Below, in pieces: positions 14,157 through 60,436 of a stretch of DNA of 64,000 nt. The notes beneath the pieces were generated by a model. The model had not been told where the DNA came from, did no database searches, and was given only the letters and a program-made list of their open reading frames with translations. The stretch comes from Lunularia cruciata (taxonomy: Eukaryota > Streptophyta > Marchantiopsida > Lunulariales > Lunulariaceae), in NCBI GenBank assembly GCA_948567375.1, contig OX419755.1:5771001-5835000 (forward strand), in the 5' to 3' direction. The position numbers and the translations under genes were made by a program. Each line of letters begins with the position of its first letter. The stretch's first letter is position 1.

Positions 14157-15330
14157 CATTAAAGTGAATGCAAAGGAAGTTTGGCATGGTTTTGGGAGTG
14201 GTCCTGACACTGGAGTTAGCTCTAATGAATGCATTAGTTGATACTTTTCCCCAAAGCAAGAACCTTGTTTGCATTTGGTACATTAACAGAAACCTTCTAG
14301 CGCATTGCCACAGAATGTTTAAAGATGGCGAAGAATGGAAGGCGGTCATGGTAGAGTGGAACAAACTAGTCCGATCTGCCGATCTTGCTACTTTTGCAGT
14401 GAGGTAGCTATCTTTCAAGACAGAATATGTTGCACATCATCTGCTACTCCAATACATTGAGAAGACTTGGCTATCACACAAGGAAAAGTTTGCTCAAACA
14501 TGGACGTCCAAGTTCTTACACCTTGTGAACGTCAACACACCTTGGGCTGAAGGAGCTCATTCCATACTAAAACAATATATTCAAACATCGACAGGCGATC
14601 TTAAATCAGAGTTTGGAAATATGTGACTTGCATGGGAAAGTCAACATTAAGAGTTCTTGGCTCAATTGAGAAGTGAGAAGATTCAAACACCACAAGCATT
14701 TGTTGGACCTTTCTACAAAAAAATTGTGATGAAGGTATCCAAGATTACATTGAGCCTTGCCCATGACCAACATCTTCTTGCGGTGGTAGCCAAGAACTGC
14801 AAGTTGCCATGGATCCATGCACGTGAATCTCACAAGGACAATCGGTTTGCCCTATCACACCAAATCGCATTGTTGATCTGTATGGGGAATGCCTCCCAAG
14901 AACTATCACAATTTCATGAGTACTGGTGGTTGCAAGATCACCCCTAGCTTCAAAAACATGTGGTGCCATACATAAAAATGACATGGACTCCTTATTTGAT
15001 GCCATTTGCACACGCTTTGACCAAGATCCTCCACACCAATAGGAGCTAATGAAGCAAACCTTGCTCAACTGATGACTCAAGAGCTAGAACGTATCAAGGA
15101 CCCATTAGTAAAAGACTGAAAAGGAAGGCCAACTGGTTTGCTAAATAAGCTCCGCTTGTCATCAACTAAGTGGGATTTATCAGGATTCAAGATTGTCAAC
15201 CTTAAGGTTAAAGTTGAGTGACATTGTGGTATCTGTCACGTTCTTGGGACTAGACATGATGTTAGGAATTGCCCTACAAAAAGGAGCATGCATATAATCA
15301 CCTTTAGACAACCGGGCATGGTGCTTGCCC
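14157..15330 (+). pseudogene. MULE transposase pseudogene
   Basis: The open segment from 14168 encodes a stretch typical of the MULE transposase core (ALMNALVDTFPQSKNLVCIW, then INRNLLAHC), with the FP...CxW...N pattern of the DDE region. Further downstream in shifted frames are WAEGAHSILKQYIQ followed by TSTGDL, matching the block after the catalytic core in this family, and a C-terminal zinc knuckle CGICHVLGTRHDVRNC (about 15220-15275). The gene is broken by stops at 14405 and 14624 and by frame changes, and it lacks most of a normal N-terminus. It would have cut and inserted the MULE DNA; this copy cannot. Confidence 0.75.
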
Positions 15331-15431
15331 TTTTCTCTATAGTGATCCAAATGCTAACAAATGTTTTGGAGATGTGCATTGTGGCTTTCACATGCTGGCC
15401 GTTGGCTTGGGTAGTTAATATGATCGGCCAA

Positions 15432-15605
15432 TGAAGTGAGCGCTTCTAACAGGCACTGGATATGCAATACTAGTTGGGTGAGGCAATAACAAGCGCTTGT
15501 ATGGGTGAGACAATAGTAGACCATATATATAGGTGAGACAATAGCAGATCTGTATGTATATAGATGAGGCAGTGGCCAAAACTGGGTGAGACTATAGAAA
15601 GAGCC
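15432..15605 (+). repeat. MULE right terminal inverted repeat, unit A
   Basis: It pairs with 13843-13999. Five spaced versions of a (T)GGGTGAGACAATAG motif occur at roughly 30-bp spacing (for example near 15476, 15503, 15530, 15564 and 15583). The same repeat opens unit B at about 44843-45020. Confidence 0.75.
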
Positions 15606-15613
15606 TATCTTTA

Positions 15614-18600
15614 TATAATCCACTGTATGATTGGATTCCCCAGATGGTACAGTCAGCAAGGCTGCCTAGTTCATGGGTTTAATCCGTTCCACAATGTGTA
15701 CTTGTCTTTGGTATGAGTTTGCTGCACTCCGTAATTCATACTATGTGTATGTTTCGCTTGTTATCCATTTTTCTGGTTATCCATTCCGCTTTCTCACTCC
15801 TTCCCACCTCCGTGGTCCTTGGTACACTTGGTACTTGGTACTTCGTTAAGAATTCTTGTCCACTTCCCTTTTGTTCCCACATATTCCTATGAGAAGCAAG
15901 TTACATCCCACAACTATAGTAACCATTGTTTTCCTATCTAATTTGTATCTGGAGAAGAGATAGCCTCTTTTGACCAAGCCAAACTATTTGCAGATGCAAT
16001 GGGAGGAATATTTGTTCTAGTAGTTGGATGCAATGCCCTCCTTAGTTTACAATCTTTGTTAATAGGTTCATTGCTTAACATATGAAGATTACTTCTTGAA
16101 GAAAATGATTGGCTTGTTGGAAGAAGCATGATAGAGGACCGTCCAAAAGACCATGACCGGCAAAGCCCTATAAGGGTTGCACAATAAAGTGGGTATAGGT
16201 ATCCTTGCAATTCAAGGATGATCTCAATTTCCTAGAATGATCAGGAAGGTGAATAGTGTATGGCCCTGCTCCATGTACAAAAAGTGCATTCATAGGGTTC
16301 ATCATTTCACTAAGAATGGATCTCTACGGTAAAACTGATAAGCAAGTAGTCTATAGGTGAAGTGTACTTGTCATGATAAGTTATGAAAGTGATGCAGTTG
16401 GCGAAGGTGGTTGTATTAATTTAGGTTAATAGGGTAGGTTCAAAGAGCAACGGGGGAGGTTCCAGGCACAAGGAGCTGAGAAGTGAGAATAAACGAGGAC
16501 AGGTAGGACGGGAGCGCCAATTCAATTCATAAAAGAATGGTGTTGAATCATACAAACGCAAAGCATATCATGCAGAAGAGATCAAATTGAAGCACACACC
16601 GCCAAATTGAAGCACACACCGCCAAATTGAAGTGGCAAAATCCAGGATTGATTTCCCAGATTAAATGTCAAAGTATCAAGGGGCCCGCCCTCTCCAGGAG
16701 GAGATGCTCACGGAGAGGTCGGGCCCTATAGAATTGGTGGGAAGCAGAGGTGCTTTACTTAGTTGTGGCTGATTACCCAGGAATGTATTATATTATGCTC
16801 TCTGAAACACAGCACATGAACATTTCTGCCCTTCACTGTAGCGGCAGTAACATGTTGACTTTAGATTGTGGGTCTCTCGGAGTCAATTTCAATCTCGGCA
16901 CCCCGAAATCAGTCAGACTGATGATGATGCACCTCTGACATGTAATCTCGCCTCAAATGAAAATTGATGTGCATGCCCTAATTCCCGTAGTTGTACCTCC
17001 ACGGGTTCAATTCTCCCCCATCACTTTGGCGTGGGGGTACCTCTAGGCACTTAGTCGATTGCTCCTGCATCGTATATACAGTGTGCACGTTTGGCATCAT
17101 TCAACTCACAAGGTATTGAGGGATATCCTCAAAGTAGTTTATGTCCGATACAGAACTCAACTGACAAGGGGCCAGACCGAACATTATGTCCTACAGGAGA
17201 TTGATATCTGGGGTGTAACCGGTAGACTTCTTCTAGAATGTTGCCTGGCCTTTAGCTCATGGGTGGTGCCACAGAACAATACGATGTGACCAGTCCCGTT
17301 GACCAATACGACGTGGCAAATATGCTGCGCGAGCTTATACATTGAAGCTTCAATGTCTAACCAAGAGACCATATATGTTGTGACGATCCCGTCGCCACAG
17401 TGCGCGCATGTGGCAGCAGTTAACTGCTGAAGTTCAAGTGAAGAAGAAGGAAACTTTGTTCCAAGACTGCAGGAAGATATCGATATAGTTTATGTCCACC
17501 TTGGTAGCGTATCCGAATCATAGGAGAATAACTGTCGAATACAGATCATCACCTGCTCGAAAGTCCTGACGGCTTGTACAGGTCCAAACCATTTGGACCG
17601 ACAATGAGGAAGGTTCCCGTGTTAAATCACAAACCAAGACCTCCGGTAGATAGGTCAATTTGAGGGGCAAAGTCGGTTCATATACTAGTATTACATTTCT
17701 CCGTAATGCAAACATTTTTGCCATTGCTTGATGAGTGGAGTTTGACAAGAGGTGGAGAAAACCGAGTCAAAGATCAAATCCTTATTTGAGTAAGGCAAGG
17801 AACTGTCCGAGATGGGAGGTCTTGATTCTACTTTTGGAATTGTGAGTTTAAACACATTGGTTACCGCTATAGACAAGGAGTTTTCTAATTGATCTAATTT
17901 GTTAGAAATCTATAGATTCTTAAAAGCAAGCTTCACATCAGGCCACGAAATATTTTGGCAAAGATGAGGGGCCACTTCAACGTCTCCTACAGCTTGCCTG
18001 AGAAGAAATATGGACAACTTGCGGAATTTTGCTTGGGAGTATACTTTTGCCTACTTTAGAATATGAATTACATACAATATTGTTTGTAATGGTCAATGAG
18101 ACTTCCAATTGCCAATTTCAAGGCAACCTATGGTTTTGGTGTCAATAGAAAACCCTGAGAAGCTACTTCTGCCGAGATAAAGATCATTTCACTTGGACAT
18201 ATAACCACCGAGATATCAAGCCCAAAATGCATGCAATAAAATTCCTCTCTTGAGATGACTCTTCCAAGATGATGATAGATGGCGGCAAAGGTCCTCAAGG
18301 CCATCCCCTTCATACCTTGGGCGTGCACAAAGATAAAGCTAAATAATACCACTGAGTGGTTTCTTGCCTAGACATAATAATATGCTTCTTTATTCCTAAC
18401 AAAATGCAGAAAAATGAAACAAAATGCAGAAAAATGAAACAAAATTGCACTTTTGAGAAAATGTCTATTGTTACAATCATATTATCAAACCACATGCACT
18501 TTAACTAAGAGAATCAAAATGATGCTCGCCAATCTTTGTACACCGTAGCCAGCAACTCAAATAGGCTTTTTGGAGTTGCACTTTGAGATATATCCACTTT

Positions 18601-28699: not shown

Positions 28700-29231
28700 G
28701 AAAAATGTATCCATGTAAGTGAATCTCACAATGAAAATGGGTTTGCCCTATCACACCAAATTGCATTGCATCTGTATGGGGGATGCCTCCCAAGAACTAT
28801 CACAATTTCATGAGCAGAGGTGGTTGCAAGATCACCCCTAGCTTCAAACACATTTGGTGCTATACATGAAAAATGGCATGGACTCCTTATTTGGTGCCAT
28901 TTGCATGTGCTTCAACCAAGATCCTCCACACCAATAGGAGCTAATGAAGCAACCTTGCTCAACTGATGACTCAAGAGCTAGAACGTATCAAGGACCCATT
29001 AGTAGAAAGTGGAAGGGGGAGGCCAACCAGTTTGCTAAATAAGCTACCCTTGCCATCAACTAAGCAGGATTTATCAGGATTCAGGATTGTCAACCTAAAG
29101 CTGAAAGTTGGGTGCCATTGTGGTATCTATCATGTTCTTGGGACTAGAAATCATGCTAGGAATTTCCCTATGAAAAGGAGCATGCATATAGTCACCCTTA
29201 AACAATAAGCACGGTGCTTGCCCTTTTCTCT
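28700..29231 (+). pseudogene. Truncated MULE transposase 3' fragment, unit A
   Basis: From about 28700 the sequence matches the MULE interior from about 14815 to 15338 (for example the shared GAATCTCACA and CAAGAACTATCACAATTTCA stretches). The open part at 28966-29208 encodes the same C-terminal region as the parent pseudogene, with the knuckle now altered (CGIYHVLGTRNHARNF). The left inverted repeat and N-terminal half are missing. It ends at CTCT, the target used by the Ty3/gypsy element. Confidence 0.75.
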
Positions 29232-29550
29232 TCTCATGCCATTGGTAGTGTCGGATCTAGATTGCTCTGACACTGGAGTTCCAATGATAGTAGTTAGAGT
29301 TATTTTAGCAGTATCTCAGAGACTACTTTCCGACGGTCAGATTTTGTGTTCAGGGTACTGACTTCACGGTAGGGCCCATCGTGAAGTCAGTAACTATCAG
29401 TCAGTGAAGTCACTTTGCACCATTTGTATCATTGAGTGTACCGTCAATGGGACCGTTAGGATTTCAAAGCTAGCTTGAGTCCAAGGGGTATAGTTTCAAA
29501 GTGAGCCGAGAGAGCTCACCTCTTTGATGTTGAGCCTTCGAGTTCTTGGC
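29232..29550 (+). repeat. 5' LTR of the gypsy element, left part
   Basis: It aligns with 44199-44490 of the 3' LTR, starting TCTCATGCC against TGTCATGCC. Roughly a tenth of positions differ, plus a 26-bp-class indel. It includes a perfect 12-bp hairpin (ACTGACTTCACG and its complement, about 29359-29395) that is absent from the 3' copy. The chromovirus splits the LTR after TTGGC. Confidence 0.8.
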
Positions 29551-29654
29551 TATAAAAGACCGAAATTGAGGAGAGAAATAGGAGAATGGAAACTCACATT
29601 GGGACATTTGAATGAGTGAAAAATCCGAATGCCTAGCATGAGGTTTGGCTTTGG

Positions 29655-29663
29655 TATTTATAG
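29655..29663 (-). promoter_or_regulatory. TATA box in chromovirus LTR
   Basis: CTATAAATA on the - strand, lying downstream (in element orientation) of the GAAGCTTC repeats, as expected for a U3 promoter. The equivalent in the other LTR is 34823-34831. Confidence 0.55.
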
Positions 29664-29800
29664 GTAGCATACAAGACCCTTGAAGCTTCTCAAGAAGTTT
29701 CCTTGAGCCACTTTCTTGGAGTGCAAGCCAACTTAACCAGGAAGCTTAGCAAGAAGCTTCCTTCTAGAAGCCATTTATTGTTGTGCAAGCTAAGCTAATT

Positions 29801-29889
29801 AGAAGCTTCTAGAAGCTACCTACTTAGGGTGCAAGTTAACTAGTTGGGAAGCTTCCCAAGAAGCTTCTTAGATGCTTCTAGAATATTCT
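29801..29889 (-). promoter_or_regulatory. Heat-shock-element-like sites in chromovirus LTR
   Basis: 29801-29815 reads aGAAgcTTCtaGAAg and 29875-29889 reads cTTCtaGAAtaTTCt. Each is three contiguous alternating nGAAn units, the consensus bound by heat-shock factors. Additional GAAnnTTC pairs lie between and upstream. Confidence 0.6.
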
Positions 29890-29958
29890 AGGCTATTTGG
29901 TCTTATTCTCTACTTTGTAATCCCGACTAACTTCGTCGTTAAACTCCATATTGTTACA

Positions 29959-29972
29959 TATTCCCCCGCCGC
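29959..29972 (-). other. Chromovirus polypurine tract, unit A
   Basis: On the - strand a purine-rich GGCGGGGGAATA directly precedes the 3' LTR (TGTAACA). This is the position and composition expected of the plus-strand priming site. Confidence 0.7.
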
Positions 29973-30033
29973 TAGTTGGTGACGTCCTCGTCGCCAATGA
30001 AGCTTTGAATTTCTTGATGGCTGTCTGTGCATT

Positions 30034-30294
30034 CTAGAGGTGGGAAAGAGGTTCCCATGTGGCATCATGAAGGATATACCCTTTCCAAAGGACCTTGTAC
30101 TCCGTATGTTGGCAACGGCCTTGTTGAATATGGCAACGCGCAAGGATACAATCAACTTCGTACTCCTCATGATCATTGATAGGGATAGGCAGGGGAGGAG
30201 GTTGGACTCGAGAGGAAAAGGAAGAGGGGTTAGGAACAAAGGGTTTCAACTTGGAAACATGAAAGACAAAATGGATACGCTTGTGACAAGGCAA
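30034..30294 (-). pseudogene. Chromovirus integrase C-terminus and chromodomain, unit A
   Basis: The frame covers the end of integrase (FHVSKLKPF) and a chromodomain: YEVDCILARC, then TEYKVLWKGY and ATWEPLSHL. Those are the conserved aromatic and WKGY...TWEP positions of the fold. The frame stops at TAG exactly where chromodomains normally continue with Gln-Asn-Ala (the following codons read NAQT), consistent with a CAG-to-TAG change. Chromodomains read methylated histone tails. Confidence 0.85.
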
Positions 30295-30533
30295 GGCAAG
30301 TCAATAAGTAACAAGAGAGACAATATGGGTGATATCAAAGGGTCCTATCCAATTAGGAGCAAGTTTACGAACTTGGGTATCAAGTGGGAGAGGGAGATTA
30401 CTAGAGGATAGCATGACTTTATCACCATCTTCAAAGGTGAGTTCACGACGATGGTGGTCCGCATATTGTTTTTGGCTATTCTAAGCAACAAGGAGGTGAG
30501 ACTTGGCTTGTTGGAGACATTGAGATATAGTGG

Positions 30534-31277
30534 TCAAGAATGTGGAAGTATGAGGAACCTGAGAGGGAGGGGGAGCAAGAAGAGAATCTGGAACAAGCGG
30601 ATCTTGGCCAAAATTGAGAAAGAAGGGAGAAAATTGGTGCTTGCCTGTTTGGAATTGTTGTAGGCAAATTTTGCAATTGCAAGACATTCATCCCAGTTGG
30701 TATGGTGGACATTGACAAAGGCCCACAACATATCCTCCAATGTACAATTTGCGTGTTCGGTTTGTCCATCAGTTTGAGGATGATAGGCCATGGACAAAGC
30801 AAGCTTGGTACCAAGTATTTAGAAGAGTGCTTTCCAAAACTTCCCGGTAAATCGAGGATCACGGTCGGAGATGTGTACATGTGGCATCCCATGATGCTTG
30901 AAGATATTGTTGAAGTAGATTTGTGCTAAGGTTGGAGCATCCACGGTATCATAGGTTTGTGCCAAGTGGATTAGCTTATTAAGCTTATCCACAAACACCA
31001 CAATTGCGGTGTGTCCTTGTTTTGTCTTTGGCAAGGATGTGATGAGATCTAAGCTCACATGCTCCCAACGAGCGGATGGAGTGGCGAGTGGTTGAAGGAG
31101 TCCACTCGGCTTTTGGTTGCTGGCCTTGTTACGTTGGTAACTCTCACATGATTGGACAAAGTCTCGAACATCTCGTGTCATGTTGGGCCACCGCCATTGG
31201 CATTGGAGGGTGCCCAAGGTCTTGTCCACTCCCATGTGACCAGCTATTGGTAAATCATGGGCTTCTTGAAGGCACAC
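30534..31277 (-). pseudogene. Chromovirus integrase, unit A
   Basis: It starts in the HHCC region (AGHMGVDKTL); the second Cys of the CxxC pair is Tyr (CESYQRNK). The DDE core is visible as LDLITSLP, HISDRDPRFTG and HPQTDGQTEHAN, keeping D, D and E. A stop at about 30819 splits the domain. Integrase inserts element cDNA into the genome; this copy is unlikely to work because of the stop and the lost zinc ligand. Confidence 0.85.
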
Positions 31278-31280
31278 AAG

Positions 31281-31880
31281 TCAAAGATCACCTTTGGTTG
31301 GAACATAGATCTGGTCTGCATGGAATAAAAAGCCTTCCTTGAAGGAGAACGTGTTGTACTCCTTGTCGCATGCTGTCAGACGACCGCGTACCATTTGGAA
31401 GAAGGGATCTTGTTGTAGAGCTGACTGAAACTCATTATGGACCTTAAGGTCAATGGACACCGTTGTAATTGCCGCCGTGATGAGAGGAAGAGCCTTCAAA
31501 TTAGGTTGTCGTGATAGAGCATCAGGGATGACAAAGAACCAACCTGGTTTGTACTCAAGTTTGATGTCAAACAATTGGAGTTGCTCTTCCCATCGATGAT
31601 GCCAACTCTTCATGTGCTCCAAGTGTAAGGTCTACAACAATGTGATCAGTTTGCATGATCACTTGTTTCCCCAAGAGATAATGCTTCCATACCTTGGTGT
31701 GATATACCATTGCAACTTGTTCTTGATCTCAAGAAGAGTAATTTCTTTCAGTTGTATATAGTCGGCAAGACACAAAGGCAATAGGATGTAGTCCATCTGG
31801 AAATTCTTGTTGCAACACAACTCCAATTGCAAAGTTAGAAGCATCAAAATCAACCACACAAGGTAGTTGAGGATCATATG
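31281..31880 (-). pseudogene. Chromovirus RNase H and connection region, unit A
   Basis: On the - strand 31780-31877 encodes DFDASNFAIGVVLQQ, the first catalytic block of Ty3/gypsy RNase H. After a frame change 31281-31622 encodes the tail of the domain (LEYKPG, PDALSRQP) and the start of the region leading into integrase. Frame changes and a stop show decay. Confidence 0.8.
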
Positions 31881-31982
31881 GTTGAAGAATGGGTCTTGAA
31901 GACACCATATGCTTTAACTTCTAGAATGCTTCTTCATGCTTGGTGGTCCACTAGAAGCTCGAGTTCTTTCCCAAGAGGTCAG

Positions 31983-32840
31983 TCAATGGTGTAGCCATGT
32001 GAGCATAATAGTGGATGAACCATTGAATGCTTGTACTTCTCTAGCATCCTTCAGGGTAGGCCAATCAATAATGGCCTTGATCTTCTCTTCTTCCATCTTG
32101 ATCCCCTTTGATGAGATCTTATGACCCAAGAAGGTAACCTCCTTCTGCCAAAAAGCACACTTTGACTTCTTGTAGTAAAATTTCCACTGTCGTAGTAGTC
32201 TTAGGACTTCTTGCACATAATTCATATGTTCTGCCTCTGTACTGTTATAGATTAGGATATCATCTAAGAACACCACCACGGACCGATCCAATAGTCTCTC
32301 CAACACACGATGCATATGATCCATGAAGATTGTTCGAGCATTAATGAGTCCAAAAAGTAGAACTCTCCACTCAAAATTTCCATACCTTGTGCGAAAGGCA
32401 GTCTTTTGCACGTCATCTCCTTCAATAGGAATTTGCCAATAACCACTACGAAGATCCAACTTGGAAAAGTAGCGTGCTCCACTTAGTTGATCAAGCAGAT
32501 CATTGATCTGAGGCAAGGGATATGCATTCTTCACGGTTTGCTTATTGAGTCCACAATAATCAATACCGAAATGAAGTCCTCCATCCTTCTTTGGAACAAA
32601 TAGTACCGGTGCTCCCCAAGGAGAGGTACTATATTGTATGAAATCCTTCTCCAACAACTCTATAAGTGTTATTCGCAACTCCTCCAACTCCTTTGGTGAG
32701 AGCCAATAGATTGGCCTACTCATTGGAGTACTCCTTGGCAATAACTCAATCTTGAAGGGCATACCTTGATCGGAGGGTAATCCCTTTGGCAGATCATCCG
32801 AAAATACATCTGTGAATTCTTGAACTATCCGATCAACCAT
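31983..32840 (-). pseudogene. Chromovirus reverse transcriptase, unit A
   Basis: A 285-residue open stretch with Ty3/gypsy RT blocks in order: SPWGAPVLFVPKKDGG, KLDLRSGYWQIPI, the finger/palm segment RTRYGNFEWRVLLFGL, the catalytic FLDDILIY, and FLGHKISSKGI. It copies element RNA into DNA. The upstream join to the protease-RT linker is interrupted by a TAG near 32863 that is a sense codon in unit B. Confidence 0.9.
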
Positions 32841-32861
32841 TGCTTGATGAGGCTCTTGGCC

Positions 32862-33119
32862 CTACTCAGATTGTTCTTGTGCAATCGGGTTGACCCACAC
32901 CACAAATACAGACTTATCTTCCTCCAAAGCTTGCTCTATGGCCGTTTCATTAACAAACTTCCCTTCCAAGGACTCATCTCTCTTCCAAGCTTGCTCTATG
33001 GTTGCCTTCTTGGAAAACTTCCCAGCTTGGGACTCATCTCCCTTCCAGATTTGCTCTATGGCTACCTTCTCAACAAACTTCCCATCTTGGGACTGGCTAT
33101 TCTTAGACGTCTTACTCAA
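32862..33119 (-). repeat. Linker with three 60-bp tandem repeats, unit A
   Basis: Between protease and RT lie three in-frame 60-bp repeats (32941-33000, 33001-33060 and 33061 to about 33105). They encode charged 20-residue units of the form GKFxxKxAIEQxWKxDES. Start of the open frame is at 33119 on the - strand. Confidence 0.8.
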
Positions 33120-33137
33120 AGGTGCCAGACAACCTAA

Positions 33138-33530
33138 TCAAAAATTTCTACCTTGGTGTTGTACTTGAATTTGTGGTCGGGTCCAATCAAATTGAACCTT
33201 ATGACGTTCAAGCCAAGGTAGACCCAGAATGATATCATAGTGTAGAGGTGCCACTACAAACCTCATACACTCCAAATACTCCTTCCCAATCTTGAAGGTA
33301 ATAGGATGCGAGGTGTAGAATGCAGAACCCTTTCTACCATCTGCCATTATCAAACTACTTCCAAACACAAGCTTGATAGGAATATCTAATTCCTTTGCTA
33401 CTTGCATAGACATGCAATTCTCTGAACTTCTAGAATCAACCAAAATCTTACAACCTTGATTAGATATCGTACCTTGCAAGTGAAGGAAACTTGCATAGGT
33501 CAAGCCTTCAATCCCTTTGGAACTAATCAA
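33138..33530 (-). pseudogene. Chromovirus aspartic protease, unit A
   Basis: A retropepsin-like domain with ILVDSRSSENCM, where the active-site D-S/T-G is D-S-R, and the second block YDIILGLPWL followed by HKVQFDW. It would mature the Gag-Pol polyprotein. The Gly-to-Arg change in the catalytic triad suggests an inactive product. Confidence 0.85.
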
Positions 33531-33599
33531 GCTCCCAATAAGTGGCTCAAAATCTACTATTGGGATTCTTTGTTTCCTTGATCATTCTATTCCACAAAC

Positions 33600-34447
33600 T
33601 CCATCTGGGCAACTTGTCAAGGTCGCCTATTCCTAAGTGGACATTTAGCAATGCGATGTCCAACTTGGCGACAATAAAAGCAACCTCCATTTTGTCGTAA
33701 TCTTTCTCTAATGCTGTACCAAGTGGTCTTCATTGGATAGCATCAATCTCTATTGGTACAGGTTCTTCCACTTGTGTGTAGTGTATTGATAGGCTTTGTG
33801 TAGGTTGAGGTCGAGACCAAGGAATCAAAATGCTCAGCCGATTGCATGGCTTCTTCTACATTTTGTGGCTCCCGCATGGTCACATGCAATTTGGTTTGTG
33901 ACTTCAATCCTCACACAAATTGATCTAGAACTTCACCTTCTTGGATATATAGGATTTGCATGATGATATTTTGAAATTGTGTGATGTAGCTTCTCATTGA
34001 GCCAATCTGCCTCAACTCTGCCAATTTATCTCGTGCGGCTCGAGTGGCATTTATAGTTTGAAATTGACCAAGTATTGTATATTTGATTTCTGCCCATGTC
34101 AAAATCGGTGTAACAATTTGTCCTTCAGCTCTTTTTACTCGGAATTACCACCAAAGTTTTTCCATGCCATCCAATTGGCTAGAAGTCAAGAGAATTTGTT
34201 TCCGTTCGTCTTGAAGATTGGTGGCTTCAAAGTAATGTTCGTAGTCAAACATAGAATTCTCCACTGTGCCTAAAAGATTCTTGCCTTCAAACACCTTAGG
34301 TTTTGGAAATCAAATGTGATCTTCTCCATCTCGAATCGGCGCTCTGTCTATCTGTTCTCGTCGTTGCTGGTCTCGTTCATCCAACAATCAAGTAAAATGC
34401 TCGATTTGTTGTTGCATTGCAAGGATAACATCTGGTATTGCCGCCAT
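33600..34447 (-). pseudogene. Chromovirus gag, unit A
   Basis: The probable start is the ATG at 34447 (MAAIPDVILAMQQQIEHF). The capsid-like part includes MTWAEIKYTIL and SMRSYITQFQN, and an intact zinc knuckle CFYCRQVGHRIAKC (C-x2-C-x4-H-x4-C) lies near 33630-33690. Several stops interrupt the frame. Gag forms the particle that packages element RNA. Confidence 0.8.
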
Positions 34448-34705
34448 CACTACTACTCTATTCCACTACCCTCAATTTATCTAGTTGATTAACACATAGA
34501 TACAACACGTCCACCATTCTCCATAAGTTACAACTGGAAGTATCAAGGGTTCCTCTGACACGGTGATCATATATAGAAAATTCTGCCCAAAGCACGAGGT
34601 GATGAATTGTGTGAAATGATGCTTTGGTAATATCTGGACATGAAAGTCCCAATGGTTTGGCGGAAGTGGATTTGGTGATCCATAAATTCTATCCATCCCA
34701 TTCTT

Positions 34706-34717
34706 GCTCAGATACCA
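34706..34717 (-). other. Chromovirus primer-binding site, unit A
   Basis: TGGTATCTGAGC on the - strand, one base inside the 5' LTR. It differs at one position from the TGGTATCAGAGC complementary to initiator Met-tRNA, the usual primer of plant Ty3/gypsy elements. Confidence 0.8.
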
Positions 34718-34718
34718 A

Positions 34719-35133
34719 TGTAAAAGACCGAAATCACAGAGAGAAATAGGAGAATGGAAACTCACATTGGGACACTTGAATGAAGGAAAACTCCGAATGC
34801 CTAGCATGAGGTTTGGCTTTGGTATTTATAGGTAACATACAAGACCCTCGAAGCTTCTCAAGAAGCTTCCTTGAGCCGCTTTCTTGGAGTGCAAGCCAAG
34901 TTAACTAGGAAGCTTCTCAAGAAGCTCCCTTCTAGAAACCGCTTACTTGGCGTGCAAGGTAAGCTAGTTAGAAGCTTCTAGAAGCTTCTTTCTAGAAGCT
35001 ACCTTCTTAAGGCGCAAGTTAACTAGTTGGGAAGCTTCCCAAGAAGCTTCTTAAATGCTTCTAGAATATTTTAGGCTATTTTGTCTTATTCTCTACTTTG
35101 TAAACCCAACTAGCTATACTCCATATTGTTACA
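34719..35133 (-). repeat. Chromovirus 5' LTR, unit A
   Basis: 415 bp with ends TGTAACA...TTTTACA on the - strand. A four-unit heat-shock-element-like array, aGAAgcTTCtaGAAgcTTCt, is at 34970-34989, upstream (element direction) of the TATA box CTATAAATA at 34823-34831. Confidence 0.9.
34970..34989 (-). promoter_or_regulatory. Perfect four-unit heat-shock element in 5' LTR
   Basis: Four contiguous 5-bp units nGAAn/nTTCn without gaps, about 140 bp upstream of the LTR TATA box in element orientation. Further GAAnnTTC pairs lie at 34850-34870 and 35030-35055. Confidence 0.6.
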
Positions 35134-35138
35134 CTGGC

Positions 35139-35310
35139 TATGGTGGACAAAGGCCGGTAAGCGTCACTTGGATTCTCTATGCTTGAGTGGGTGTGGCTTG
35201 ACTGTAATCAGTGCCCAATCGTTGGCAGTTTATAGAGTGACATATCAAATACTGATCTATGTTGAGTTGAGTTGAGTTGAGAGTGGTAAGCAATCTGATT
35301 ACATCAAAGA
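35139..35310 (+). repeat. 5' LTR of the gypsy element, right part
   Basis: It continues the LTR interrupted at 29550 and aligns with about 44490-44648 of the 3' LTR (shared TATGCTTGAGTGGGTGTGGC and the GAGTTGAGTTGAGAG microsatellite). It ends in CTGATTACA, after which the sequence no longer matches the 3' LTR. Confidence 0.8.
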
Positions 35311-36711: not shown

Positions 36712-38330
36712 TTGATATCAACATGTATCTCAAGTCCCAGTGAGGAGGAGATTGACTCTGAGTTGGAGTTTGACACGAGAGCTGATTCAGTTGAGAGTGC
36801 ACTTGGTGTGTCCGCACCGTTATTGTGGGACATGGACAAGATCTATGGGGCCTCCAAAGGCCCTAGGCGTTACTCTGGTATAGTGTATACCATTGAGTTG
36901 GATGACTTCATCCAGGATTTTGATAGTTGGTGTGATCTGTAGCAGATGCGGAACCAGACTTTGTTCACACCCTTCATGGCATGGAAGGGGTTGTTTTAGC
37001 AGTTGGAGGGTCCGTTGATGGATGACTACCATGAGTTCAGGAGAGCTCATTTGGAGGAGATTGAGTTATGGAGACAATATCGGTCTCCGAACTATATCTC
37101 TATCACTTCAGGTTCGGTGGCCAGGAGTAGATTGGTTGTACCTACGAGTTCTAGCTCGAGTAGTGTTGGTGGAGCTAGTGGAGGGAGGTGCACTAGTTGG
37201 AGATAGTGCTACTACGAGTGGAGGTACCGCTGTAGGAGGTGGTGTGGTACCGGGGTTTAACCTCATGGTGGAGTTCTTCTTGTGTTTGAGGCAGAACTAC
37301 TAGGGAGTGCGGACTGACAAGCTGAGGAGCTTGCAGGAGTTCCAATAGAAGGCTGGAGAGAGCCTACGCGAGGCATATACTCGCACAAGGCGGCTGATCA
37401 GTTTCACTCAGGGAGTTATTGAGGCCCAAGCAGTCAAGTTTTGGTATGGGATACTAGACAGGGAGTTACGACATAGAGTTCATGATGCTACGTTGTTACA
37501 GGCTACTTCGCCTACTTTGGCAGTGGTCTTTGGTTTGGCTAAGTGTATCAAGCTCAACATGGTAGAGGAGAGGGTGGTGACATCTGGATTTGGTAGAGAG
37601 ACCTCATCCACGGCTGTGACTTCTTCTAGAGTGTAGCAGAGTGTACCACGCCCAATTGGTTTTTGAGAATAACATGGACAGCCCAGATCCTATGGAGCAA
37701 GTGGTGGGCCTAGTGGAGTTAGACCCTTACCTTCATTTTTGGGTAAGGAGCAGCCAATGAGTGGTGGTGTTGCTTGTTGGACTTGTGGTGGACCGCACCA
37801 TCGGAGAGAATGTACTCAAGGCAGTGGACTTGATACCTCGGGTGCATCACATCCAACACAGAGGCAGTGTGAGCACTACCATAGATTTGGTCACACTAGT
37901 GACCAATGGTTTGACCTACAACCGTAGTTATGGAGTGGTAGGGTTGTTACGGCAGGTAGTAGAGGAGCTCCAATTCATGGAGGACGAGGTGGTAGAGGAT
38001 CTACACCTAGTAGGAGTGCAGTACCTGCACTTACTTCTTACACAACTATGGCTACTCGGATTGAGCAGTTGGAGCAAAGATTTGCTAGTATGGCTATTGC
38101 TCAGAGGAGATCAGATTCGAGTGCTGAGGCTTCCACCTCATATGTGGGTGATAGAGATGCTTTGGACTTCATGTGCGGAGCAGCACAGGTGGATGCATCT
38201 ATAGCAATGACTAGGAGTGCAGTACGTGCTCCAGTGCCTAAAGGAGCATCAGTGGAGTTGGACCCACATAGAAGAGAGGTTGGTAGACAGGTCAGACTGC
38301 CCCAGTCTTTCATGCTATCTGAGGCATAAC
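36712..38330 (+). pseudogene. gag of the methyltransferase-bearing gypsy element
   Basis: Capsid/nucleocapsid region. The first part (36712-37206) carries MDKIYGASKGPRRYSG and SPNYISITSG. After a frame change, 37250-37640 holds a retrotransposon-gag segment (SLREAYTRTRRLISF, VKFWYGILDRELRHRVHDA). A zinc knuckle CWTCGGPHHRREC is near 37775, followed by a second degenerate one (CEHYHRFGHTSDQW) that has lost two Cys. In-frame stops at 36940, 36997, 37301, 37346 and 37634 are all TAG. The product would coat element RNA. Confidence 0.75.
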
Positions 38331-38443
38331 AAACGATATCCATGGTTCCTAGACATTCTAGTGCAGGTGTGGTAGGTGGTGATGGAGTACATGATGGACT
38401 ACCTGCTAGTCAGCCACCTACTACTACATAGACTGAGTCTAGC

Positions 38444-39130
38444 ATGATGTTGGGGGTGGCTCAATTGATTATGCGGCATCCTTTGTTTTCAGCCAATGAC
38501 ATGTTTCAATTGGGAGTTGACCCAACCCTAGTGTTCCGGTTGGCTGCCATGCTGTGTGAGAGTATGGATGGTGCGGTTCCTACTACTAGAGCAGACGTGG
38601 TTGGTAGTGGAGCTGACTTGGTTGAGGAGTATGGGATCCATTCAACGACTAGTGGTTTATGGCAGGTAGTAGTGGCTAGACTAGAGGAGTTTCCAACTAG
38701 ACCGGCCTTTGAGAGAGCACGGTTCACACCTAGTGTTGTTCTATTGGATAACTAGAGGGGGATTTTTGTTTGGTGGGACCTTCAAGGAAGGTCTATACAC
38801 CACATAGAATTTTGTAAGACTCTGGTGCACAGCCTCTTATGTTGGGGAAGGCTGCAATTGTCGGTCTGGAATTACGGAAGACCGATGTGGAGAGGTGTTC
38901 ATTTCAGATCTAGACATCTCTAGGTGATGGTTTGACACAATACATCACACATGGAGAGCTTGTTGTCTAGGTTCAGCCTGGTCATCCAACTGATAGATTG
39001 GTGGTGAGAGCTCAGGCTATTGCGACAATAGCTGAGTCATATGATGTGCTAGTTGGGGGAGTAATGTTATACCCCATGGCTTTCAACATTGACTATTGGG
39101 AGGAGACAACCTCTTATAGACATGGTTAGC
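38444..39130 (+). pseudogene. Aspartic protease region of the gypsy pol
   Basis: One frame runs through 38770-39540. The retropepsin active site DSGAQPLMLGKA begins at 38818, preceded by a TAA at 38815 where a Val-type codon would be expected; a later block reads YDVLVGGVMLYP. This is the usual place of the protease in a Ty3/gypsy polyprotein. The segment 38444-38755 upstream (MMLGVAQLIMRHPLF...) has no known domain. Confidence 0.7.
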
Positions 39131-39540
39131 AGTCTGGTGAGGGACGGGTATGTCACCTACCAGTATGCTTCAATAGTGGCAGTCTTGGCTCACTACAGTT
39201 CGAGACCATGGCAGCATCAATTTTAGCTTTTAGTGGTGCAGTTACTTGGCCTGGTGACTTGTTGGAGGGGAATGCCCATGCAAAAGATACTCCAGTACTA
39301 GAGGAGATCACTCGGCTTTGGAGTACAAGTGGGACTGTTCCATCCACCTTGGATGTTCCATTGTAGAGTTCAAAGGAGGTGTTGCAGCAACATGTAGATC
39401 AGTTGGTGTAGTAGGCTTGGAGTGGAGCCTTCGTACCATCAAGAGATGAGTGTGAGAATGAGCCTCCAGAGGTGATTTCTTTGACACCTCTGGATACCAC
39501 ACTCATTGCTTGGCAGTATCCAGTAGAGGAGATATGCCTA

Positions 39541-40480
39541 TTAGAGTTGTTTGGTGGGATCAGCATCGGACTAGCTGTAGTGTTACAGGCGGGTATCCGA
39601 GTACAGAGGTACTTGTATATAGAGAGAGATGAGACTGCTAGGTGAGTCTCTCGACATCATGTGGCACACTTGGCCTATTGGTATATGAAGTTATTACCGA
39701 TGTCAACAGTCAAAGGTTACCAAAAGGCCCTATCAGCAGACATTTCCTTACAGGGGGCACATGACCTAGAGAGACATGGGCCTATTCACTTGGTGATTTT
39801 TGGATGGCCATGTCAGGGACATACACGTGCGGGCCACGGTTTTGGTCTTCAAGATCCTCGTTTTGGTGTGTTTTGAGAGATGTTATGGATATTATGACAT
39901 CTCCAAGTTCATCAGTCCGTTTCTCTAGCTTACTTTTGAAGAACATTCCTTTGATGGGTGATTTTCGCACCAGAGTGGTGGTGAGTACACATCAAGTCCA
40001 TTCTTGGATGGGACTTGCTGTATTGTTAGATGCAGCCAGAGTGGGATCACGGGCCCATCGTCTTCATCTTTGGTGGATGAACCTTTTACCCAGAGAGGTT
40101 TTACAGCGTGCTTATGATGGGATTCAGCGACTTGACCACATCCTTGTTGATGATATATTGGATATTGGGCGTCAGTCTCAGACAATGGTAGCGGTTGATA
40201 GGTCACCTATGGCAGTGGTGAACCTAGTTGGACAGCCTAGAGCCGCATTTCCCACACTCATGAGTTTCCTAGGCTCTCATACTTTTTGAGAGGGAGGACA
40301 TGGACTTGTTTAGGACTCATAGTTACAGCAGTTGGTGGAGCCCAATGCCAATGAGAGAGAGCGTGCGATGGGTTTCCGTACCGATATAACCGCTGTTCCA
40401 GTAGTGTCAGAGGCATCCATGCATCAGGTGTTAGGTCAGGCTAAGGACCTGAGTTGTTTGACCTGGATTGTGAGCCTTGG
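39541..40480 (+). pseudogene. C5-cytosine DNA methyltransferase domain within gypsy pol
   Basis: The enzyme family transfers a methyl group from S-adenosylmethionine to cytosine C5. Motifs occur in linear order: I, LELFGGISIGLAVVLQAGI (39541); II, RYLYIERDE; IV, VIFGWPCQGHTRAG with the catalytic Cys (39800); VI, LKNIPLMGD, where the usual ENV is KNI; VIII, SRAHRLHLWWMNLLP (about 40040); IX, NANERERAMGF; X, VLGQAKDLSCLTW. VIII to X resemble DNMT3; the PCQG of motif IV resembles DNMT1-type and bacterial enzymes. The order excludes the rearranged plant DRM type. The domain continues in frame from the protease, so it is part of pol. TGA at 39643 and 39874, a 1-nt loss near 39935 and the Glu-to-Lys change in motif VI make this copy inactive. 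Confidence 0.85.
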
Positions 40481-40956
40481 CTTGGCAGAGCAGCGTAGGA
40501 TGCGCTTGATAGGCATCACCACTCAGACACTTGTGAGCCTTGTGCCTATCAAGACGATTCAGGCACATGTTGGGGGCAATGGACCGAGTGGACATGGTAT
40601 TCTTGGGACACATCCAGTAGCTACTAGGAAGAGTGCTCTACTTGGAGTCCATCCAGGTGAGCGTGGGCTACTTGGATTACACCCTTGGTCCACTTGGGAT
40701 GCAACTAGAGGACATGTGGAGCTTGCAGCCATAGTGGAGGGAGTTTTTCACACAGAGGTTGGGACCTCTAGTGATCGGGAGCATGATGCTATTGCTCCCA
40801 AGGGCCCAATGTAGCAGCCAGTCAGTATATCTTCCACTCCTACTATAGTTATAGAGGATACTTGGGAGCCAGATCTTGGACCTAAGCTTATTGGAGAGGA
40901 AAGACAGAGTGTTTGGAGGTTCTTGAAAAGCCACACGAGTTGTTTTTTCCTTTAGT
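40481..40956 (+). other. Linker between methyltransferase and reverse transcriptase
   Basis: Mostly open frame with repeated LG(V/L/T)HP motifs (LGTHPVA, LGVHPGE, LGLHPWS at about 40605-40690) and no recognised domain. It leads into the conserved pre-RT segment. Confidence 0.5.
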
Positions 40957-42010
40957 ATGAAGGATTTGGGTGCTCTGAAAGGACTTGGCATATGGATTGA
41001 GCTTACTAGCAATACACTAATTTTCCGACGTCCATATTGTTATAGTGACATGGAGAGGACATTGATGCAGAGCCGGAGTAGTGACCTTTTTGAGGCTGGT
41101 TTGGTGGAGATTTCACATGGAGAGTATGCATCAGCGACAGTGATGCCAGCCAAGAAGGATATGCATGGCAACTACATAGATAGGCGGATGTGTGGAGATT
41201 ATTGTGCTATCAACCGATAGACCAGGGTTGATCGGTATGCCATGCCTACATCGGAGGAGATTTTTTATGTGATTGGGCATGCAAAGGTCTTCAGTACTTT
41301 GGATCTTTGAGCGGGATATCATCAATCGATCAAGGAGGAGGATAAGTCCAAGACAACATTTTGGGCTATTGATCCTCATGGCAAGGATGTGTTATATCAA
41401 TGGAGGTTTTTACCATTTGAGTTGAAGAACGTTACTATTGAGTTCTAGAGGGTCATGGATAGGATCCTAGCTGGATTGGATTTTGCTTGGTGCTATATTG
41501 ATGACATTTTGGTTTATAACACTACTATGGAGGAACATGAGAGACAGTTGTTGGAGTTGTTTGAGAGGTTGAGATCTCATGGACTCAAGTTACATCCTTG
41601 GAAGTGTAGGTTCTTCCACGAGCAAGTTGAGTATTTGGGTCACACTATCTACCCCAGAGGACTTGGTGTTCAACAGACCAAGGTGGAAGCTATTGCACGT
41701 AATTCTCAGCCTACGGATGTGAGCAGAGTGCGAACATTCCTTAGGTTGGCGAACTTCTATCGCTGCTATGTTAGAGGATTTAGTGCCATTACCAAGGCCT
41801 TGACAAAGCTGACCAAGCTTACATAGGAGTGGTGTTGGGGAGATGAGCAGGAGAGAGCTTTTGTAGAGCTCAAGGAGAGATTGACATTTGCTCTTATTTT
41901 GAGGAGACCATTTCAGGTTCATACTGATTGGAGTATGTTGGGGCTTGGAACTGTGCTCACCCAGCATGATGATGAGGGGAAGGAGTTTGTAGTGGCCTAT
42001 ACTAGTCGCT
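40957..42010 (+). pseudogene. Reverse transcriptase and RNase H of the gypsy element
   Basis: RT blocks: MERTLMQSRSSDLFEAGL, ATVMPAKKDMHGNY, MCGDYCAINR, KVFSTLDL, YQWRFLPFELKN, the catalytic YIDDILVY (about 41499), HPWKCRFFHEQVEYLGHTI and ANFYRCYVRGFS. RNase H begins FQVHTDWSMLGLGTVLTQHD at about 41910. Stops are at 41218 (TAG after INR), 41308 (TGA after LDL), 41446 (TAG after EF) and 41824 (TAG). At 41218 and 41446 the family normally has Gln. Confidence 0.88.
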
Positions 42011-42666
42011 CATGCTAGTTGCTCCAACAATTCAACAAAGGCAAAGTATAGTTCATATGAGGGAGAGTGCTTGGCAGTAGTTTGGGTAGTAACACATTTT
42101 TTATGTTACCTATTTGGTAACCTCTTCACTCTCATCACTGATCATTAGCCACTGAAGTGGTTGATGGAGTCCGACAAGCTTTCAGGGAAGCTTGCAAGAT
42201 GAGCTCTGATTTTATAGGAGTATGATTTCACGGTTGTTCACAGACCTAGAATAATGAACCATGATGCAAATGGGTTGAGTAGAAACCCATGTCCCAACTA
42301 GTAGGATCAGACCAGAGCACGTTGGCATGGTGAGATAGATGAGGAGATGGTGCCAAGTTGGCATGCATCTGCCTTTTTGTATATATTTTTAGAGGCTTTG
42401 GTGGTATCTCTCTCAACGTATATAGGAGGAGTTATTGAGGTTATAGATCCAAAGAGTGAAGATATTGGTATAGTTCAGCGAGACATTCATGATGATGTCT
42501 TAGTGATGGAATATCTTTGCATTGGTGTTGTGGGTGGCACAGTTGGGGCCAAGGAGAGAGATCATGTTCTTCAGTGAGCCAGATGGTTTAGATTGGAGTG
42601 CAGACACCTTTTGCGTGTATGAGAGGATGGTAGAGTGCAAGTAGTACCACTTCCATCTCAGAGACC

Positions 42667-43515
42667 ATAGTTGGTCCGTCATGCTCATGAGGAGCTAGGA
42701 CATTTTAGAGTAAAGCGTACATATAGCTTACTCCAGAGTCATTATTGGTGGCGCGGTATGCAGACCAAGGTATAGTAGTTTGTTGCCAACTGTGTGGTTT
42801 GTGACCAAGTTAGAGCATCATTCAATGCTCCTATGCCACAGTTACACCCATAACCTATCATGGGATTGGGTTACCATTGGAGTGTGGACTTTGCCAGACC
42901 TTTATCATTGACTATGAGACGCCATCGATATGTTTTGGTGATGGTGGAGCATTTCTCCAAGTGGATTGAGTTGGTGGCACTTCCTGACAAGTCTAGTGAA
43001 GGGATAGCTTACTCATTCATGGATCGAGTTCTTAGTCATTTTGGTGCACCAGCTGAGGTTTTGACTTATCAGGTATAGAGTTCTTGGGAGAATTTCAAGT
43101 CTTGTGTGATAAGGCTTTGATTGATCATTGTACTACATCCCAAGATCACCTCAAGGTAGATGGCTAAGCAGAGAGAGTGGTTCAAATAATGAAGAGAGGA
43201 TTGCAAAAGTATAGTTTGCAGAGAGGCCACTTGGGAGATTGGGATCTCCAATTACCTTGGTTGGCCATGGGCTATTGGTTCAGTTGGCAAGCCTCCTTAG
43301 CATCCTTCTCTCCGTACTTTCTACTCTATGGACGAGGTCCAGATTTACCTACAGCCATTCGTCGAGATGCTACTTTAGTTTTGGACTTGGATGACCCCGA
43401 TGTATGGATGAGTGCATGTTCTCGGCGGGCAGAGATCTTTCAGATAGTGATGCCAATGGCCTTTGAGAACTTGGTGATTGCTCAACATAGAGATACTTTA
43501 CGCTATGCTTCCATT
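42667..43515 (+). pseudogene. Integrase of the gypsy element
   Basis: The zinc-binding HHCC part is VRHAHEELGHFRVKRT with CVVC (about 42790). The catalytic core keeps the first Asp (SVDFARPL) and the Glu (AERVVQIMKRGL), but the second Asp is Tyr (EVLTYQ, near 43060), followed at once by a frame change and stops. The C-terminal part (PWLAMGYWFS, PYFLLYGRGPDLPTAIRR) is recognisable. Integration activity must be lost. Confidence 0.85.
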
Positions 43516-43589
43516 TGAGGAGGAGGTTATAGACCCTCGATCCATCAATTTCATCCAAGCGACTATGTCTATCTAAGCAGACAACACCG

Positions 43590-43916
43590 ATGACACTTGA
43601 TGTTTCGACAGGCCGCACTATCTTGAGAGTGCGTGAGGTTTTGCCATCTGGAGTCCTTGTGTTGGAAGGACGTGATGGTGTTGTTTGGAAGGTTCATGTG
43701 CGCAATTGTGCGCCATGCCACCTCCCAAACATTGATGGTACTATGGACCCAAGCTTGGCACTTGTACGTGTAGGCTTGAGGTGTATGTTGTGTGGCTCTT
43801 CTAGTGGAGCTGCTACTATGTTAGTGTGTGATAGCTGTTCAAGAGGATGGCATATGGCATGTATGACTCCTCCCATCACGGTGGTTCCTCAAGGATAGTG
43901 GTTATGTCCTAGATGT
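43590..43916 (+). pseudogene. Integrase tail with PHD zinc finger
   Basis: The tail has an SH3-like integrase segment (TILRVREVLPSGVLVLEGRD) and then a PHD finger at 43782-43916. Its Cys4-His-Cys3 ligands are all present: CMLC, CDSC, WHMAC (His and Cys) and CPRC, with the invariant Trp two residues before the last Cys pair. One TAG (43896) interrupts it, where GQW would be expected. PHD fingers usually read histone H3 tails, so this likely replaces the chromodomain found in other gypsy elements. Confidence 0.82.
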
Positions 43917-44091
43917 ACTTTGACCCATAGCTAGTTCATTCTTTATATGGTATAGATTGCAGACATGCGACTAACGATGGGGCTCCATAGCACCCGGCCT
44001 CTTGATCTTTGCCCATTAGAGGGTATACGATATACTTAGAGTAGATGGCTATCTGGAGTTAGAGGGACCTAACCGCCAGCTAGGGAGGTGA

Positions 44092-44198
44092 TTGTGGCAC
44101 TTTAGATTCTATGTATGACTTATGTGTGAATTGCGCTTCTTTAGTGTATGTTATAACAGCGATGTATGTTGTGTAGCAATGTATATACGCACGACAAC
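44092..44198 (+). repeat. Extra copy of the LTR terminal segment before the 3' LTR
   Basis: About 105 bp (TGTGGCACTTTAG...ATACGCACGACAAC) that recur at 44649-44753 with about 12 percent difference. A purine-rich AGCTAGGGAGGTGA precedes it and may be the polypurine tract. This makes the left border of the 3' LTR ambiguous. Confidence 0.65.
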
Positions 44199-44753
44199 TG
44201 TCATGCCATTGGTAGTGTCCCATCTAGATTGCTCGGACATTGGAGTTCCAGTGATAGTAGTTAGAGTTATTTTAGCAATATCTCACAGACTACTTTTTGA
44301 CGGTCAGATTTCATGTTTTGGGTACTGACTTCACGATGGTGCACACCGTCACTTTGCACCATTTGTACCATCAAGTGTGCCGTCAGCGGGACCGTTAGGT
44401 TTTCAGAGCTAGCTCAAGTTCAGGGGGTATAGTTTCAAAGTGAGCTCTAGAGAGCTCACTTCTCTGACGTTGAGCCTTCGAGTTCCTGGCTATGGTGGAC
44501 AGAGGTCGGCGAGCATCACCTGGATTCTCTATGCTTGAGTGGGTGTGGCTTGACTATAATAAGTGCCCAGTTGTTGACAGTTTATAGAATGACATATCAA
44601 GTACTGATCTATATTGAGTTGAGTTGAGAGTGGTAAGCAATCTGATTATTGTGGCACTTTAGAGTCTATGTATGACTTATGTGTGAGTTGTGCTTCTATA
44701 GTGTATGATGTTCACGCGATATATGTTGTGTAGCGATGTATATACGCACAACA
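44199..44753 (+). repeat. 3' LTR of the gypsy element
   Basis: It starts TGTCATGCC, ends GCACAACA and is followed by CTCT (44754-44757) and the MULE continuation TTAGTGATCC. Its first 450 bp match the split 5' LTR; the last 105 bp have no match in the 5' LTR but match 44092-44198. Confidence 0.75.
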
Positions 44754-45028
44754 CTCTTTAGTGATCCAAATGCTAAAAGATGTTTCAGGAGATGAGCATT
44801 GTGGCTTTCACGTGCTGGCCGTTGGCTTGGGTAGTTAAAATGATTAGCCAATGAAGTGAGCATTTCTACCAGGGCATTGGATATGCAATACTAGTTGGGT
44901 GAGGCAATGATAAGCGCTTGTATGGGTGAGACAATAGCAGGCCATATATATGGGTGAGATAATAACAGATTTGTATGTATGAGACAGTACCCAAAACTGG
45001 GTGAGACTATAGCAAGAGCCGATCTTTA

Positions 45029-49416: not shown

Positions 49417-49459
49417 GCAAGCTTCACACAGATACTAGCAGTATCTGTGTGAAGCTTGC
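49417..49459. repeat. Perfect 20-bp inverted repeat (hairpin), unit B
   Basis: Same arms and AGC loop as 20369-20411, without a single change although the flanking DNA differs at several positions. Confidence 0.85.
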
Positions 49460-59114: not shown

Positions 59115-59189
59115 TATTCCCCCGCCGCTAGTTGGTGACGTCCTCGTCGCCAATGAAGCTTTGAATTTCTTGATGGCTGTCTGTGCATT

Positions 59190-60433: not shown

Positions 60434-60436
60434 AAG

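Follow-up and report, generated by a model that had tools for sequence, protein, structure and literature searches.

The window analysed here, 64,000 nucleotides of the Lunularia cruciata genome (contig OX419755.1, positions 5,771,001 to 5,835,000), contains a decayed Ty3/gypsy retrotransposon in which a cytosine DNA methyltransferase, real as judged by sequence comparison, sits between the protease and the reverse transcriptase (RT). Such an element had been proposed in a first-pass annotation, and profile placement in the window bears the proposal out; the annotation overlooked a PHD finger and an A-B-A-B arrangement of repeats, and the window copy is moreover broken. By the same kind of comparison, the relatives of this copy are a streptophyte Ty3/gypsy lineage with a DNMT3-class enzyme and, in many members, a PHD finger. 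The reading we favour, and consider moderately probable, is that the window holds a dead member of a DNMT3-bearing gypsy family in which stop-codon readthrough, packaging of the enzyme, methylation of the element's own cDNA and PHD-steered integration would be combined.

C5-methyltransferase motifs I, IV, VI, VIII, IX and X are found in linear order in translations of the window frames, within the domain placed in Table 1, much as the annotation had them; of its further claim that they lie in the protease frame, profile placement upholds the part on motifs I-IV and puts motifs VI-X in another frame. With X at its stops, the window domain matches 67 proteins (best E 9e-139), and on such alignments the match is not chance. 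Among solved structures, 29 of the 30 PDB sequences found at E <= 10 are DNMT3A, DNMT3B or DNMT3C (best 1.7e-4). Pfam PF00145 stays below the cut-off on the decayed window copy (E 0.085 and 0.11) and is present in all 11 relatives scanned. A profile search without any C5-methyltransferase match, named beforehand as a ground for giving up the claim, is not what these searches or the DNMT3-ranked profile described below returned. The window copy retains the Cys of motif IV; the Glu of motif VI and the second Arg of motif VIII, both kept by most relatives, are gone.

For METHYLTRANSFERASE of the enzyme, a profile built from 8 relatives scores highest against DNMT3A/B (77-62 bits), followed by DRM (52-43), HhaI (38), DNMT2 (36) and DNMT1 (13), among the best 60 of 64. 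By this measure the family enzyme belongs to the DNMT3 class, with DNMT3A/B nearest among solved structures. The annotation had called the origin unclear and motif IV DNMT1-type or bacterial-like, a view at odds with 77 bits for DNMT3 against 38 for HhaI and 13 for DNMT1. PCQG in the family's motif IV is not a sign of DNMT1 or bacterial kinship, because the profile ranking favours DNMT3; the DNMT1-type or bacterial origin it had suggested is disfavoured. Motifs I-X run in linear order, unlike the rearranged order of DRM. Cys, Glu, Arg and Arg are all kept in 85 of the 109 relatives that cover the four catalytic positions (24 lack at least one), with all four intact in 31/33 elements of type I and 14/16 of type II, the two architectures described below. 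The catalytic Cys is kept in 123 of 126 rows and the Glu in 141 of 152. Elements only about 30-60% identical to the window copy in the methyltransferase domain still have open frames and catalytic residues.

The element occupies 29233-44753, with a 5-bp target duplication, CTCTT, on both sides. These limits follow from a paralogous site within the window at which the flanks join without the element, at 15335, and CTCTA stands once, as against CTCTT on both sides of the insertion. Inside lie the protease, RT, RNase H and DDE integrase in Ty3/gypsy order, with the methyltransferase placed between protease and RT. Two CCHC-like knuckles can be seen by eye near 37770-37920 in the Gag-like region, and the window RT is 74% identical to that of Marchantia P0167. 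The nested element E2 has an RT whose best match is yeast Ty3.

Table 1. The methyltransferase element, its nested insertion and its target site, in window coordinates
Feature	Position	Strand	Basis or remark (column counts cover the aligned stretch)
Paralogous empty site	14809..17343	.	14809-15338 matches left flank 28705-29231; 15335-17343 matches right flank 44754-46754
Left target-site duplication CTCTT	29228..29232	.	Empty-site paralogue 15335-15339 has single CTCTA
5' repeat A, left part, cut by nested gypsy E2	29233..29552	+	263/305 ungapped columns identical to 3' A
E2, younger nested Ty3/gypsy in 5' A repeat	29553..35130	-	LTRs 29553-29929 and 34721-about 35130
5' repeat A, right part	35131..35301	+	155/172 ungapped columns identical to 3' A
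Gag-like region, broken	36832..38767	+	tblastn to Marchantia P0174 residues 1-573
Aspartic protease region, DSGAQPLMLG type	38734..39150	+	Profile; frame 38401
DNMT3-class cytosine methyltransferase domain	about 39484-40502	+	Profile from relatives and window; two frames, 39484-39948 and 39846-40502, with stops
UAG stop closing ORF1, then CAG CCA (UAG CAR YYA)	40812..40820	+	Place and motif as L030 3489-3497
Reverse transcriptase and RNase H start	40936..42015	+	Profile (from 41083), homology to longer relatives
RNase H remainder, other frame	42002..42223	+	Profile and homology
Integrase (H2C2 and core) and following stretch, broken over frames	42635..43584	+	Profile to 43156, homology beyond
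PHD finger, C4HC3, one stop	43770..43925	+	Pfam PF00628 E 1.1e-7
Repeat B1	44091..44196	+	98/113 columns identical to B2; purine-rich stretch before B1 (by eye)
3' repeat A	44197..44648	+	Self-comparison
Repeat B2, element right end	44648..44753	+	Missing from empty site
Right target-site duplication CTCTT	44754..44758	.	Flank comparison

With E2 removed, the ends of this one copy read A-coding-B-A-B, that is, as split repeats and not as one plain LTR pair. An ordinary LTR of 168 bp had been considered and was overturned by the empty site and the nested E2, which together are the reason for reading the repeats as split. We infer that the arrangement represents a normal element, its LTR equal to BA, in which a two-LTR circle was opened where B meets A. 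Domain scans of the family gave no match to the tyrosine recombinase that marks DIRS elements and found H2C2 and rve integrase domains instead. By eye, no tRNA primer site is seen behind the 5' A repeat. The A repeat also has weak inverted similarity (73-76%) to 47135-47245 and 18480-18561.

An open-frame relative helps to read the broken frames of the window. L030 (CADCWO010000201.1), a contig of 9285 bp that carries the same 127 bases at both ends, comes from an uncultured sample and was filed in a cyanobacterium bin, where it is likely a eukaryotic contamination. If closed at its ends, it is open throughout: ORF1 encodes Gag, protease and methyltransferase, one in-frame TAG follows, and ORF2 encodes RT, RNase H, integrase and PHD finger. 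The methyltransferase domain closes the Gag-protease ORF ahead of the stop, which tells against the annotation's placing of the domain inside pol. The L030 junction reads TAG CAA TCA (3489-3497) and the homologous window stop at 40812 reads TAG CAG CCA; both fit UAG-CAR-YYA, a context found at 1 of the 101 plus-strand TAGs of L030 and at 2 of the 1854 TAGs on both window strands. UAG-CAR-YYA is the readthrough context of tobacco mosaic virus. Behind this stop the window frame is broken. Given this junction, present in L030 as in the window, the methyltransferase forms part of the Gag-protease product, and the RT-integrase-PHD part would be made by stop-codon readthrough. Many type I relatives end 40-170 residues past the methyltransferase (from a list of tails filtered to 40-260 residues), and some of these ends may be contig ends; P0181, P0183, P0184, P0196 and P0207 have methyltransferase and RT in one protein. 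Either the stop between the two is not universal, or gene models conceal it. Past the PHD finger and outside the ORF lies a 35-nt block in which L030 (6752-6786) and the window (43967-44000) are 88.6% identical, as against just 45% identity between their methyltransferases.

The PHD finger is present in 11 of the 13 proteins with at least 250 residues past the integrase, in L030 and in the window; P0204 and P0181 lack it despite sufficient length. Window positions 43575-43931 are 59% identical to L030 ORF2. The nearest solved PHD fingers include those of CHD4, PHF12, KMT2D, UHRF1, KDM5A/B, PHF21A and AIRE, several of which read unmodified H3. The chromoviruses carry a chromodomain after the integrase, whereas the present family has a PHD finger in the equivalent position (compare PMC3605345). 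In the literature searched, no report of a PHD finger in gypsy elements was found, the one Culex passage concerning a host gene.

Three protein searches returned at least 207 proteins, made up of at least 204 family members and P0159-P0161, which are set apart; all three used the methyltransferase domain as query, and the family is by design the set of its carriers. Organism-named matches numbered 19/67, 7/at least 111 and 17/at least 51, with some repeated between searches. The named hosts are Marchantia polymorpha, M. paleacea, Riccia sorocarpa, Calypogeia fissa, four Sphagnum species, Closterium sp. NIES-53 and Klebsormidium nitens. No vascular plant is among the organism-named matches listed, and most matches are metagenome or SRA contigs. 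Some members already stand in databases as genes: P0162 (Mp_4g09160) and P0163 (Mp_8g17980) are annotated Marchantia proteins made of protease and methyltransferase pieces of the family, the UniRef name of P0163 being DNA (cytosine-5)-methyltransferase, and P0166 (Mp_6g11220) and P0205 (Sphagnum fallax BDL97_09G086500) are annotated pieces that continue into the RT. Beyond these searches, two short patterns were run against 84,980 prokaryote genomes; they produced 101 pattern matches and 2 relatives, namely L030 and a short match in Streptomyces. A viral origin was also considered and set aside. In IMG/VR a scan with P0001 matched no pattern; a profile scan found 29 loci, 26-40% identical in the best segment. 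Relatives of the E2 RT were likewise scanned for, with no hit.

The enzyme tree with human DNMT3A, described below, groups the window with liverwort, Sphagnum and further elements (16 rows, 100/100), and the RT tree, restricted to RTs of at least 110 residues, joins the window RT to two Marchantia rows (100/100). A branch (100/99) separates the 19 family RTs from those of E2 and Ty3, the only enzyme-free RTs compared. For 19 elements, enzyme and RT distances agree (Mantel r 0.74, with 0/5000 permutations as high).

Two domain orders occur. Type I runs protease, methyltransferase, RT, RNase H, integrase (and PHD), as in the window, K. nitens P0196 and Marchantia; type II runs RT, RNase H, methyltransferase, integrase, PHD (7 complete proteins), with no example among the organism-named members. 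Type II RTs form one clade in the RT tree (99/99). One enzyme tree took rows of known type with at least 300 domain residues plus 13 hand-picked ones, and included a partial human DNMT3A as the sole host DNMT3 row. In it, type II falls on one side of a branch (82/96) and type I needs 3 changes, with P0207 apart and DNMT3A inside, among type I rows, on a branch of length 3.2. Without DNMT3A, and also without 10 near-copies removed by hand and the rows of unknown type, type I (21 rows) lies on one side of a branch (100/99); rooted with P0159-P0161, type II then needs 2 changes. This outgroup consists of the weakest matches of the second protein search, which we judge to be phage-type. The simplest reading of these trees would be one capture followed by one relocation, in either direction.

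By its sequence the window copy is dead and broken, with in-frame stops, frame splits and two of the four catalytic residues lost. Homologous alignments cover 51 in-frame stops of the element, 45 of them with an aligned residue, and 20 of those 45 fit a direct C-to-T or G-to-A change (raw counts: TAG for Q 9, TGA for R 6, stop for W 5). CpG observed/expected is 0.36 in the element and 0.44 in E2; genes and the left region have 0.66-0.80. Probably the element was once methylated and has since decayed through deamination, like other silenced elements.

The flanks contain duplicated reading frames of alpha/beta-hydrolase (DUF676) and NB-ARC type, behind which come frames that are leucine-rich by eye; window 15335-29231 and 44754-58387 are duplicated units of 13.6-13.9 kb with DUF676 and NB-ARC immune-receptor frames (Pfam on the first unit). 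NLRs with an alpha/beta-hydrolase domain are described as enriched in non-flowering lineages, bryophytes included, in PMC11218826 (see also PMC3352924). Taken with the kinship of the element, such frames indicate a bryophyte host, perhaps a liverwort. Positions 24680-34844 and 53830-64000 are 98.4% identical, as against about 90-94% for other array pieces, a difference that points to conversion or to duplication in two rounds. The left end of the methyltransferase element occurs once more, again with E2 nested in it, at 58389-64000, where it runs off the window; the insertion was therefore probably duplicated together with the array. Two tandem 222 bp copies, 97% identical, lie at 47181-47624.

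Capture of cytosine methyltransferases by retrotransposons, which the annotation had mentioned, is on record for KnitGypsy-Dnmt3 of Klebsormidium and for Symbiodinium elements (PMC5890265). KnitGypsy-Dnmt3 of Klebsormidium nitens is a gypsy polyprotein with a DNMT3 domain and a DIRS-like repeat order (de Mendoza et al. 2018), the A-B-A-B order itself being spelt out for SymbioDIRS. Its Ka/Ks is reported to lie under 0.2, and its domain gave no methylation in yeast, which the authors consider inconclusive; two SymbioDIRS-Dnmt3 domains methylate CG in yeast. The same authors suggest methylation of cDNA and report the SymbioDIRS and SymbioLINE captures as unrelated to the gypsy case. The present family resembles KnitGypsy-Dnmt3 in its DNMT3-class gypsy polyprotein and A-coding-B-A-B order, and it includes K. 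nitens P0196, which may be one of the paper's own elements. It differs in extending to bryophytes and Closterium, in the PHD finger that follows the integrase (the annotated P0196 stops too soon beyond its integrase to reveal one) and in having the methyltransferase on the Gag-protease ORF before the UAG-CAR-YYA stop, in the window as in L030. None of the words PHD, gymnosperm and fern appears in the main text of PMC5890265. A DNMT3-bearing gypsy element from one alga was already known; the land-plant spread, the readthrough layout, the PHD finger and the second architecture are additions.

Other comparisons place the family among known systems. SymbioDIRS-Dnmt3 and SymbioLINE-Dnmt of Symbiodinium are also retrotransposons with cytosine methyltransferases, and SymbioDIRS likewise has two domain orders and split repeats; according to PMC5890265, however, these are DIRS elements with a tyrosine recombinase, or LINEs, whereas the family here is gypsy with a DDE integrase. 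The plant host proteins PpDNMT3a/b (Yaari et al. 2019, PMC6453930) share the DNMT3-type linear methyltransferase domain but carry a C-terminal DUF3444, which Pfam found in none of the elements scanned. Ectocarpus gypsy elements also bear a histone-reader-type module past the integrase, a chromodomain or Tudor in their case (PMC12477816); unlike them and the chromoviruses, the family here has a PHD finger instead, plus the methyltransferase. An Ectocarpus Sola DNA transposon carries a methyltransferase gene of N4/N6 type, a different enzyme class (PMC12477816). A survey of plant LTR elements (PMC6317226) contains neither methyltransferase nor PHD as a word, and no report of bryophyte DNMT retrotransposons was found in the literature searched, which lies mostly outside subscription journals.

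How such an element might use its enzyme can be sketched from the layout. Production of ORF2 by stop-codon readthrough would yield methyltransferase in Gag-like amounts, packed into the particle, where the protease could release it from the Gag product. The freed enzyme would then act on the element's own fresh DNA copies, methylating them ahead of integration or at that step, and the PHD finger borne by the integrase may direct insertion into chromatin whose histone H3 tails suit it, like the chromodomains of chromoviruses. A new copy would land already methylated, in compatible chromatin. Such pre-methylation could hide the copy from detection of naked foreign DNA, or could curb its own activity and spare the host.

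Other roles for the enzyme deserve attention. It might act on RNA, or serve as a structural or nucleic-acid-binding part of the particle, with DNA catalysis beside the point; its place at the end of the Gag-protease ORF would suit this, as would the KnitGypsy domain's lack of detected activity on DNA in yeast, and De Mendoza et al. discuss RNA methylation for SymbioLINE-Dnmt (both from PMC5890265). We regard this as fairly unlikely, however, given the conservation of the catalytic Cys (123/126) and Glu (141/152) and a profile nearest DNMT3, far above the tRNA enzyme DNMT2 (77 against 36 bits). The enzyme might instead be aimed at the host, silencing host loci or upsetting host methylation in the element's favour: an expressed writer could act in trans, and the PHD finger could bring it to chromatin. 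Yet enzyme and finger lie on different ORFs in L030, and K. nitens, a carrier of such elements, has a land-plant-like methylome as reported in PMC5890265; host-directed use seems to us unlikely. Carriage as a passenger, captured once and kept along without function, would fit a window copy that is broken and CpG-poor (0.36), but it is very improbable where open frames and catalytic residues persist at about 30-60% identity and L030 is open throughout.

A separate question is whether the bryophyte, Klebsormidium and type II elements captured DNMT3 from hosts independently, with horizontal transfer as a further route to the same spread. De Mendoza et al. place the capture in the K. nitens lineage (PMC5890265), and in one enzyme tree human DNMT3A came to lie inside type I; its row, however, is partial and its branch measures 3.2. 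The enzyme of K. nitens P0196 likewise lies between protease and RT and groups with the other type I enzymes once DNMT3A is left out (21 rows, 100/99), its RT falls in the family, and enzyme and RT distances agree. Split repeats are reported for KnitGypsy-Dnmt3 too (PMC5890265). Repeated capture or transfer is, on this evidence, distinctly unlikely. The preferred reading, a family that methylates its own cDNA, may be extended to a broader proposition that we offer tentatively and hold to be doubtful. One lineage predating the split of Klebsormidium and land plants would have kept both a writer and a histone reader, with a readthrough stop giving the writer in Gag amounts and DNA copies that are pre-methylated, and a sister branch would have moved the writer between RNase H and integrase. 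Retrotransposons might then have been a standing, heritable, small-RNA-independent source of methylation in early land plants, with perhaps the sole DNMT3-class enzymes in, for example, Marchantia.

The case of Marchantia brings out what the family may mean for its hosts. Five DNA methyltransferases in three classes (MET, CMT, DRM) are listed for Marchantia in PMC5784723; with no DNMT3 in that list, the element enzymes would be the only DNMT3-class ones there. Counts of methyltransferases in bryophyte genomes can include element genes. The combination of enzyme, finger and integrase offers a natural set for comparison with DNMT3A and its ADD domain. Transposable elements are normally the targets of DNA methylation; here a family carries a writer, and many of its members also a reader by the integrase. 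With members in liverworts and Sphagnum, some of them on file as annotated Marchantia genes, the question of why a transposon would methylate DNA can be put to the test in Marchantia.
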